Shown here piece by piece: positions 1,970 through 11,263 of a DNA stretch of 31,384 bases. Where the stretch lies: the IMG/VR virus record IMGVR_UViG_3300044535_000655, positions 1-31,384 of that record; one strand, 5' to 3'. The notes under the pieces are model-generated. The model had not been told where the DNA came from. It searched no databases and saw only the letters and a program-made list of their open reading frames with translations. The DNA is from a virus. The translations under genes were made by a program, and so were the position numbers. Within the stretch, counting starts at the first letter, position 1; each line of letters opens with the position of its first letter.

Positions 1970-2188
1970 CTAGATGTCGCCAAGCTCGCGGATAATTTTG
2001 CGCTTTAGATTCTCCATCAAATCCTCTAGCTCAATCAAAGTATCGCCGATCTTCTCGGCTTCTTCCTCATCGCCTCTATCTTGGGCTTGTTCTAGGAACT
2101 CTTGCTTTTCGTTTAGTTCCTCTACTAGCTCTTTGAGCTGTTCTAGTAGCTCATCAATCGTGTCTAGCTTTCTAAGCTCTCTGTCCAT
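1970..2188 (-). CDS. Acidic coiled-coil protein, first gene of operon, 72 aa
   Basis: Nearly the whole protein is a predicted coiled coil with regular leucine/isoleucine heptads (IDELLEQLKELVEELNEKQ ... TLIELEDLMENLKRKI) and strong net negative charge. It is the first gene after the repeated early promoter, and its ATG follows a GGAGAAGGA ribosome site. A Ser-rich open frame on the opposite strand is only its antisense. An acidic coiled-coil miniprotein made first in infection would suit a role binding a host protein, or mimicking DNA. That is speculation; the family is not recognised. Confidence 0.65.
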   Translation of the reverse strand: MDRELRKLDTIDELLEQLKELVEELNEKQEFLEQAQDRGDEEEAEKIGDTLIELEDLMENLKRKIIRELGDI

Positions 2189-2229
2189 TTTTCCTTCTCC
2201 GTTTCCCTAGCCATCTAGCTAGTAGGTAA

Positions 2230-2258
2230 AGTAAATCAACTGCCAGCTTTGAGCGCAA
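2230..2258 (-). promoter_or_regulatory. Early promoter for the 2188-1 operon
   Basis: On the minus strand there is a -35-like TTGCGC (2253-2258), a 17-bp spacer and a -10 TTTACT (2230-2235). Transcription would start near 2223 and give a leader of about 35 nt ending in GGAGAAGGAAAAATG. The same -10, the same spacing and the same leader core (GAAACGGAGAAG) occur upstream of the gene at 11065. The repetition makes it much more credible than either hexamer alone. Confidence 0.65.
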
Positions 2259-2276: not shown

Positions 2277-2293
2277 GGTAACGATTTGGTAAC
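2277..2293 (-). promoter_or_regulatory. Direct-repeat operator GTTACC-N5-GTTACC
   Basis: Two GTTACC half-sites 11 bp apart (2288-2293 and 2277-2282), read on the minus strand, centred about 62 bp upstream of the predicted start. The same arrangement with GTTATC occurs at 11159-11175 at nearly the same distance from the matching promoter. The helical phasing and position resemble a class I activator site, but a repressor site cannot be excluded. The binding protein is not known. Confidence 0.6.
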
Positions 2294-2294
2294 G

Positions 2295-2318
2295 AAAAAG
2301 CCCCCTATTTCTAGGGGG
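2295..2318 (-). terminator. Rho-independent terminator of the recombination/replication operon
   Basis: On the minus strand CCCCCTA-GAAA-TAGGGGG forms a 7-bp stem with a 4-base loop, followed by C and five T's. It lies about 40 bp after the stop of the gene at 2356 and directly before the early operator, so it separates two transcription units. The plus strand also has four T's after the stem, giving weak bidirectional character. Confidence 0.8.
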
Positions 2319-9747: not shown

Positions 9748-9775
9748 AAACAACAAACCCCCAACACAAGGGGGG
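9748..9775 (-). terminator. Terminator after the SSB gene
   Basis: On the minus strand CCCCC-TTGTGTT-GGGGG is followed by TTTGTTGTTT. The five-base GC stem and interrupted T-run make a moderate rho-independent terminator about 35 bp after the SSB stop. It closes the first early operon. Confidence 0.6.
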
Positions 9776-9810
9776 CGTGTCGGGGGCTGTTGCCTTTCGG
9801 AGAAGAAAGA

Positions 9811-10194
9811 CTATGCGGGAACTAATTCCTCATCTACTACAAACTGATTGCGGGTAAACTCAGCTTCGCCGTAGCATAAATCGTGACCAAGGCTAGTGAC
9901 ATCAACCTCAACAGATGTGCCTGTTCGTTCGCCGTTGTCCCAATCGCGAATCCGCAGATCGCCCGATACTATGACTCGCTCACCTTTGTGAACCGACTTG
10001 GCTACATTGATAGCTAGCTTGCGGTAGCAAGTAATCGTGTACCAATTGGTTTCGCCTTCGACCCACCTGTTCTCCCTTGCGCTAAACTTGCGGGTTGCGC
10101 TAGCCAACCGAAACGAAGTGATTTGTAGTCCCTCTTGGGTGACTAGGTGACGCGGGGTTGTGGCTACTAAGCCAGTTATTGTTATCTTTTCCAT
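9811..10194 (-). CDS. ssb: Single-stranded DNA-binding protein, 127 aa
   Basis: A plain SSB OB fold: MEKITITGLVATTPRHLV, FRLASATRKFSARENRWVEG, NWYTITCYRKLAINVAKSVH, KGERVIVSGDLRIRDWDNG and TSVEVDVTSLGHDL follow bacterial and actinophage SSBs strand by strand. The C-terminus (VDEELVPA) is acidic but lacks the usual DDIPF tip, so partner recruitment may differ from that of host SSB. It is the last gene of the early operon starting near 11104 and lies two bases after the preceding gene. A second, shorter OB-fold protein that does have an SSB-like tip is encoded at 3202-3549. Confidence 0.88.
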   Translation of the reverse strand: MEKITITGLVATTPRHLVTQEGLQITSFRLASATRKFSARENRWVEGETNWYTITCYRKLAINVAKSVHKGERVIVSGDLRIRDWDNGERTGTSVEVDVTSLGHDLCYGEAEFTRNQFVVDEELVPA

Positions 10195-10656: not shown

Positions 10657-10847
10657 TTGCTCAACATCCTTGACTGGAGTCCCGCGATTGGCAGTCCCTC
10701 TGACTTAGCCCAAAGACACGCATTGTTTACAACCGCTACTCGCGAACCGCGTTCTTGGTAGTAATAAAGCGCACCGCCTTTGGTAAACAAAGTGATTTTC
10801 CATTCGCCGATCTTAGGGGTGTTATCGACCGCCATCCACTTGCTCAT
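10653..10847 (-). CDS. Small hypothetical protein, 64 aa
   Basis: A basic protein with Trp and Tyr clusters (KIGEWKITLFTKGGALYYYQ) that suggest three beta strands, and a C-terminal helix (NNACLWAKSEGL). ATGA overlaps join it to both neighbours. No family recognised. Its early position fits a host-directed or DNA-metabolism accessory role, which is speculation. Confidence 0.55.
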   Translation of the reverse strand: MSKWMAVDNTPKIGEWKITLFTKGGALYYYQERGSRVAVVNNACLWAKSEGLPIAGLQSRMLSK

Positions 10848-11065
10848 TTGTTTAGTCCCTTCTCAAGACCCAACACGATTGAATCTTCTACAAAGCTGAC
10901 GATTTCGCCGTTTCTAAAAAACTCAACAAAGAATGTTCCGTCATCTTCTCTGACTCCACCGCAGATACCCGCATCCGCTGGACCGTAAATTACCCATTGA
11001 TACCAACCGCTCATGCACTCTTTGACTACGGTGTAGCCCTTGTGCTTGATTGTCTCTTTACTCAT
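10844..11065 (-). CDS. First gene of early operon, hypothetical protein, 73 aa
   Basis: Small beta-rich protein (HKGYTVVKECMSGWYQWVIY, GTFFVEFFRNGEIVSF) with an N-terminal MSKETIKHKG and a C-terminal helix (DSIVLGLEKGL). It directly follows the repeated early promoter, with ribosome site GGAGAAGAAG before the ATG, so it should be among the first proteins made. No membrane segment or known motif. Function unknown. Confidence 0.6.
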   Translation of the reverse strand: MSKETIKHKGYTVVKECMSGWYQWVIYGPADAGICGGVREDDGTFFVEFFRNGEIVSFVEDSIVLGLEKGLNK

Positions 11066-11110
11066 TGCTTCTTCTCCGTTTCTCGACCCGCGTATCGGGG
11101 CGATGGGTAA

Positions 11111-11139
11111 AGTAAAGCAACTGTGAGCTGGCAGGTCAA
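11111..11139 (-). promoter_or_regulatory. Early promoter for the 11065-9811 operon
   Basis: On the minus strand -35 TTGACC (11134-11139), a 17-bp spacer and -10 TTTACT (11111-11116). The predicted start near 11104 gives a leader of about 40 nt. The -35 is close to consensus and better than in the sister promoter at 2230-2258. The spacer segments are also related (both contain CTG and CAGTTG), so the two look like copies of one element. Confidence 0.7.
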
Positions 11140-11158
11140 GCTTTGGAGAGCTTTTTTA

Positions 11159-11175
11159 GATAACAATTTGATAAC
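11159..11175 (-). promoter_or_regulatory. Direct-repeat operator GTTATC-N5-GTTATC
   Basis: Two GTTATC half-sites 11 bp apart, with AAATT between, centred about 63 bp upstream of the predicted start. The sister copy at 2277-2293 has GTTACC twice with AAATC between, so the R/Y change is shared within each pair, as if both half-sites were kept alike. This is a likely site for one regulator controlling both early operons. Confidence 0.6.
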
Positions 11176-11227
11176 AGCCCACAGCCCCCGAATCTAGCGG
11201 GATTTAGGCGCTATCCCCCAGATAGCC

Positions 11228-11263
11228 AAAAACCCCCCTACAGTCGGATGACCATAGAGGGGT
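11228..11263 (-). terminator. Terminator at end of late operon
   Basis: On the minus strand ACCCCTCTA pairs with TAGGGGGGT (9 bp, one G-T wobble) around a 14-base loop, followed by four more T's. It lies about 80 bp after the stop of the Ig-repeat protein gene and ends the roughly 20-kb late block. A second inverted repeat, GGCTATC...GATAGCGCC (11208-11227), follows directly. Confidence 0.75.

Follow-up and report, generated by a model that had tools for sequence, protein, structure and literature searches.

Predicted boxes for the host response regulator MtrA at two promoters of a phage

The question raised by this locus is which protein binds a short direct repeat that stands upstream of two promoters in a single phage. 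Within the window (by which we mean the whole 31.4-kb phage record that was analysed), the operator motif GTTAYC-N5-GTTAYC occurs exactly twice, compared with 0.02 occurrences expected from shuffled sequence, and none of 100 shuffles reached two. MtrA is a near-universal OmpR-family response regulator of the Actinobacteria, indeed their most conserved one; it regulates the cell wall and the cell cycle, and it is essential in M. tuberculosis. Regulators of the OmpR/PhoB type bind 11-bp direct repeats head to tail. Judged by their sequence, the two operators are quite likely to be MtrA boxes of the host, through which host MtrA would activate two phage operons.

Two copies of one promoter

Both operators lie on the minus strand, at two leftward promoters, where the initial annotation had placed its repeats (2223-2293 and 11104-11175). 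The features of the two copies are as follows.

2301..2318, minus strand: terminator-like hairpin directly upstream of operator A
2277..2293, minus strand: operator A, predicted MtrA box (GTTACCAAATCGTTACC), two CGTTACC half-sites around AAAT; from motif matches and published consensuses
2230..2258, minus strand: core promoter A, with -35 TTGCGC (2258-2253), 17 nt and TTTACT (2235-2230); from the sequence, kept in the nearest relative
2233-2228, minus strand: alternative -10 of promoter A, TACTTT, overlapping TTTACT; from the sequence
2207..2222, minus strand: short hairpin CTAGCT-AGAT-GGCTAG where transcript A is expected to begin
1970..2188, minus strand: first gene of operon A, 72 aa, function unassigned; small genes follow down to 136
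11232..11263, minus strand: terminator-like hairpin that separates the structural-gene operon from operator B
11159..11175, minus strand: operator B, predicted MtrA box (GTTATCAAATTGTTATC; copy B is TGTTATCAAATTGTTATC), two TGTTATC half-sites around AAAT; from motif matches
11111..11139, minus strand: core promoter B, with -35 TTGACC (11139-11134), 17 nt and TTTACT (11116-11111); from the sequence, kept in the nearest relative
11087..11099, minus strand: short hairpin CCCG-ATACG-CGGG in leader B
10844..11065, minus strand: first gene of operon B, 73 aa

On the other strand, operator A reads GTAACGATTTGGTAACGAA (plus strand, 2278-2296) and operator B reads ATAACAATTTGATAACAGC (plus strand, 11160-11178). 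The copies follow a common layout, in which the operator is succeeded by 18-19 nt, a TTGnnn -35, 17 nt, TTTACT, a short hairpin, GAAACGGAGAAG and the start codon; this confirms the shared arrangement first described for them (the gap between operator and -35, the 17-nt spacer, TTTACT and the leader element GAAACGGAGAAG). TTTACT is present at both promoters as annotated, but it lacks the usual A at the second position and is a poor -10, and the overlapping TACTTT (TAnnnT, with a 19-nt spacer) is, from the sequence, a possible -10 in its place. The observation that both half-sites of a copy carry the same base also stood, as this T or C is what the R (A/G) of the MtrA consensuses in the literature becomes when it is read on the opposite strand.

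Because a terminator-like hairpin precedes each promoter, both appear insulated from upstream genes. Operon B continues with genes of 64, 77 and 76 aa and then an SSB-like gene (9811-10194). A strong terminator-like hairpin at 9756-9788, between the SSB-like and 68-aa genes, suggests that operon B may be split; beyond it lie the 68-aa, exonuclease (MRE11-like), sigma-like and 115-aa genes. The evidence favours the annotated picture of a promoter present in two copies, one per operon, each with an operator of the activator type near -62, while its designation as 'early' was drawn from gene content only, making the promoters putatively early.

A perfect short hairpin (stem of at least 5 pairs) was observed at the expected transcript start in 12 of 16 promoters with a box, as against 23% of random stretches from the same genomes. 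Box promoters with a start-site hairpin are those of the window (2207-2222 and 11087-11099) and of L004, L009, L010, L015 and L019-L022. Such hairpins may protect the 5' end of the mRNA at box promoters of this phage group.

Similarity to MtrA boxes

The tightest of 294 MtrA sites measured in M. tuberculosis (KD 4.6e-8 M) is the fas/Rv2524c site, which contains TGTTATCAAATCGTTAT (PMC10609481). Operator B agrees with TGTTATCAAATCGTTAT at 16 of 17 bases, and its copy in the nearest relative at all 17. Published descriptions of the box include the C. glutamicum consensus RTAACAATttnRTAACAAT (PMC3353115), the M. tuberculosis motif (t/c)(G/t)(T/a)na(C/T)c, which occurs twice with a 4-bp spacer (PMC11215152), and the Streptomyces motif GTnACC-n5-GTnACn (PMC5650626, PMC13189361). 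The first of these is matched at 16 of 19 positions by operator A and at 17 of 19 by operator B, and when up to 3 mismatches are allowed it retrieves only these two sites from the window (0.14 expected). A strict form of the M. tuberculosis motif, YGTnAYC-N4-YGTnAYC, again found only operators A and B (shuffled mean 0.06); the loose form is too degenerate to inform, with two occurrences in the window vs a shuffled mean of 1.2. The operators also agree with the Streptomyces motif. The window therefore holds two direct repeats that fit the MtrA half-site at an 11-bp period, and the match covers sites measured or defined in three genera. An exact 18-mer, CGTTACCRAWTCGTTACC, is frequent in Bacteroidota genomes among the matches listed (genome contigs, L046-L165), so this string alone is not diagnostic of MtrA.

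Conservation in related phages

As relatives we took 21 loci with a shared exonuclease gene. The conservation check proposed along with the initial annotation turned out in its favour, as the operator is kept in the nearest relative, and roughly half of the more distant relatives have it as well. The nearest relative (L003, IMG/VR 3300042898_000748), which is about 90% identical, retains both operators and both promoters; in each copy the second half-site is altered to GTTATAAAAA, with the TAAC core on the other strand intact. Among the relatives, RTAAC pairs number 16 at spacing 6, vs about 1.5 at other spacings, and nearly all of them are found about 65-110 nt ahead of a start codon, from which a promoter separates them. 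When a matrix was trained on the relatives alone, the window sites ranked first and second, with scores of 26.6 and 19.6; in 50 shuffles the second-ranked site scored at most 14.2. Since about half of the relatives are without a clear box, it has been gained and lost among them and is not essential to the phage group. No box was found in the Pontimonas phage phiPsal1, which is the nearest among small phages whose named host belongs to the Microbacteriaceae.

Position relative to the -35

To describe the phasing of box and promoter, IMG/VR was scanned for the exact box followed by TTGC within 30 nt, with the GTTAC orientation, a -35 and a fair -10 being required. Among the 26 viral cases, which are not independent because the viruses are in many cases relatives of one another (a connected group of 30 loci plus five small groups), the gap between box and -35 was 19-22 nt in 22, 9-10 nt in three and 18 nt in one, with no other gap between 3 and 31 nt; the window has gaps of 19 and 20 nt. 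Sites of the opposite orientation in the relatives have gaps of mostly 12-16 nt. The gap pattern is phased by whole helical turns, as would be expected of an activator that contacts RNA polymerase from one fixed face. In C. glutamicum, MtrA sites upstream of the -35 activate, and repressing sites lie near the -10 (PMC3353115). The window boxes stand upstream of the -35 at the activating position, in the same phase as in the other viruses.

These positions bear on a different role for the same protein, namely that MtrA binds and represses, keeping the operons off until its activity falls, as a deferment switch. MtrA can activate or repress, and CtrA sites have either effect, depending on the phage (PMC9437464). 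However, a helically phased site well upstream of the -35 is the C. glutamicum activator arrangement, at a distance from the -10 region where the repressing sites of that species are found (PMC3353115), and we consider repression unlikely.

The host and its use of the box

The presence of WhiB-like and sigma-like genes, and a terminase nearest to those of Streptomyces and Pontimonas phages, point to an actinobacterial host. A prophage relative was sought by alignment of the exonuclease in genome contigs, where none was found. The Microbacteriaceae are a plausible host family. A search of 30 actinobacterial genomes found MtrA in every one of them, with 25 of the hits scoring above the curated cut-off.

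Of two neighbouring Agrococcus baldri genes for secreted NlpC/P60 hydrolases, one has the identical string CGTTACCAAATCGTTACC upstream and the other a close variant of it. Hydrolases of the NlpC type are MtrA targets, as in the case of nlpC in C. glutamicum and ripA in M. tuberculosis (PMC3353115, PMC11215152). Because the NlpC/P60 loci of a mixed set of small actinobacterial genomes had no boxes except in Agrococcus, we used a family-level set of Microbacteriaceae. In 30 NlpC/P60 loci of this family, RTnAC pairs peak at spacing 6 (31 vs 5.8), whereas the RecA loci, which served as a control, have no such peak (4 vs 4.6), and the AmtB loci, which encode ammonium transporters, have instead the GlnR-type GTnAC-n6-G[AC]AAC (27 vs a background of 1.8) and low scores with the phage matrix. 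These scores were higher at NlpC/P60 loci than at RecA loci (p 3e-4) or AmtB loci (p 1.5e-5), and a matrix site lies at -350..+60 of the NlpC/P60 reading frame in 15 of the 30 loci. The candidate host family thus carries the box at known MtrA-type targets, as compared with the RecA and AmtB controls, and its members presumably share an NlpC/P60 MtrA regulon. The upstream regions of mtrA itself had no enriched box. Near the recA region, several Microbacteriaceae genomes (RecA loci, L341-L370) have GlnR-like GTAAC-N6-GAAAC boxes.

Candidate binding proteins

Of the host proteins, MtrA is the best match to the operators by sequence, and GlnR, the OmpR-type nitrogen regulator of the host, is the main alternative. 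GlnR boxes have the form GTnAC-n6-GaAAC or, in S. venezuelae, GTnAC-n6-GTnAC (PMC10704036). They share the 11-bp period and a similar core with the operators, MtrA and GlnR share sites in Streptomyces (PMC10704036), and the S. venezuelae form would fit the window sites, so that the core alone is also compatible with GlnR. Yet both half-sites of the window operators are RTAAC, and the GAAAC b-site that accompanies a GTnAC a-site is absent. Moreover, the two types of box are separate in the Microbacteriaceae, where AmtB loci are of the GlnR type and it is the NlpC/P60 loci that score highly with the phage matrix, and the closest MtrA consensus is that of C. glutamicum, which is said to be an exception without GlnR sites (PMC10704036). 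Taken together, these points make GlnR an improbable binder.

Alternatively, the phage itself might encode the regulator of a private two-operon regulon, be it the sigma-like, WhiB-like, 68-aa or 97-aa protein that the initial annotation had named or some other. The existence of two copies, the fact that both second half-sites changed together in the nearest relative and the DNA-binding-type proteins encoded nearby would all suit such a regulator. Against it, the four named proteins occur equally in relatives that have the box and in those that lack it. The box itself is found in viral fragments with none of the four, in fragments of phages that have no detectable gene in common with the window, and at NlpC/P60 genes of bacteria; nor was an OmpR-type DNA-binding domain (Trans_reg_C) found in the window. 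As the window has no such domain and the four candidates do not track the box, a host protein is the simpler reading, and a phage-encoded binder has, in our view, very little probability. Neither those four nor the 'unknown' regulator of the annotation is thus favoured by our results, since the operator fits host MtrA, an OmpR-type head-to-tail dimer on 11-bp repeats.

Two further comparisons had been drawn for the operator. Its distance from the start does resemble a class I position, but the inverted TGTGA-N6-TCACA of CRP is absent, the window site being a direct repeat of GTTAYC. The parallel with lambda CII fails, as TTGC-N6-TTGC flanking the -35 occurs at neither promoter.

If MtrA is the binder, its known biology suggests that a head-to-tail dimer of the phosphorylated host protein would bind upstream of the -35, with one winged helix per 11-bp unit, and, centred near -62, would help the host's main RNA polymerase to start the two phage operons. 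A phage without such a regulator would in this way borrow that of its host. The benefit could be that phage genes are expressed when the host is active or dividing, or that the phage relies on a regulator that every actinobacterial host has. Computation shows the match to MtrA sites, the conservation in related phages, the helical phase and the use of the box at NlpC/P60 promoters of Microbacteriaceae; we infer that MtrA would occupy the boxes in infected cells, that it would activate rather than repress, that expression would be early and that the phage would benefit.

Arrays in Gordonia phages

A search of the named-phage collection gave 47 records of Gordonia phages with a match to the box. 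Three records were inspected (Avazak, Jodelie19 and Aflac); in these, the non-coding gap that separates the DNA helicase and HNH genes holds 2-5 CGTTACCAAAT-like units in tandem. The arrays (L433 3870-4300, L434 2890-3300 and L435 2890-3310, all Gordonia Deejayvirinae) lie in an AT-rich gap after the DNA helicase gene, which also has other short repeats, and from their sequence they resemble a replication origin, or else an array promoter. Distant relatives (L041-L045) have GTTAC/GTAAC repeats in 11-bp steps inside a replication gene, and these are possible iterons.

Both sets of repeats are in keeping with the idea that the window repeats serve as iterons, bound by a replication initiator of the phage, and not as transcription operators, but we think this most improbable, as the window and most relatives have just two units, in fixed promoter phase and about 90 nt before a start codon. 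Even an origin-like location would be compatible with MtrA, which itself binds the oriC of the host.

The hosts of the box-carrying Gordonia phages are cultured. We tentatively suggest, as a possibility that we would not rate as probable, that actinophages of several groups, including these culturable Gordonia phages, took up high-affinity MtrA boxes that gate expression, and perhaps origin use in the Gordonia phages, by the cell-wall and cell-cycle state of the host, as a counterpart of lytic deferment by CtrA. If phages do read MtrA output, infection would be tied to the cell-wall and division state of the host; MtrA boxes would then help to predict hosts and expression times of uncultured actinophages, and the phage promoters could be used as MtrA reporters.

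Comparison with known systems

The window operators resemble the MtrA boxes of Actinobacteria (fas, C. glutamicum and Streptomyces) in sequence, in 11-bp period and in their place upstream of the -35. They differ in that those boxes serve host cell-wall and replication genes whereas these putative ones stand before phage operons. In cluster K mycobacteriophages, extended start-associated sequences (PMC3203893) likewise put an inverted repeat between promoter and start codon of non-structural genes; the 13-bp start-associated sequence of that cluster, GGGATAGGAGCCC, is absent from the window even with up to 2 mismatches allowed.

Closer parallels exist in the use of a host response regulator. 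In phages of Alphaproteobacteria, CtrA sites underlie lytic deferment (PMC9437464), and there, as predicted here, phage promoters use a response regulator of the host cell cycle in more than one phage group. The phylum and the regulator are different, and dense clusters of sites there contrast with single phased boxes, as predicted, at two promoters here. In the cyanophages P-SSM2 and S-PM2d, PhoB acts at Pho boxes (PMC10976474), such that a host regulator of the OmpR/PhoB family drives phage genes through a direct-repeat box, as we predict for MtrA; the genes concerned are phosphate-starvation genes in those phages, but replication-type genes and small genes without assigned function in this one. 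We found no report of the use of MtrA by a phage, or of an actinobacterial case, in the literature searched. The use of host response regulators by phages is thus already known from Alphaproteobacteria (CtrA) and Cyanobacteria (PhoB), and the probable host MtrA operator described here would be a further case of such use.
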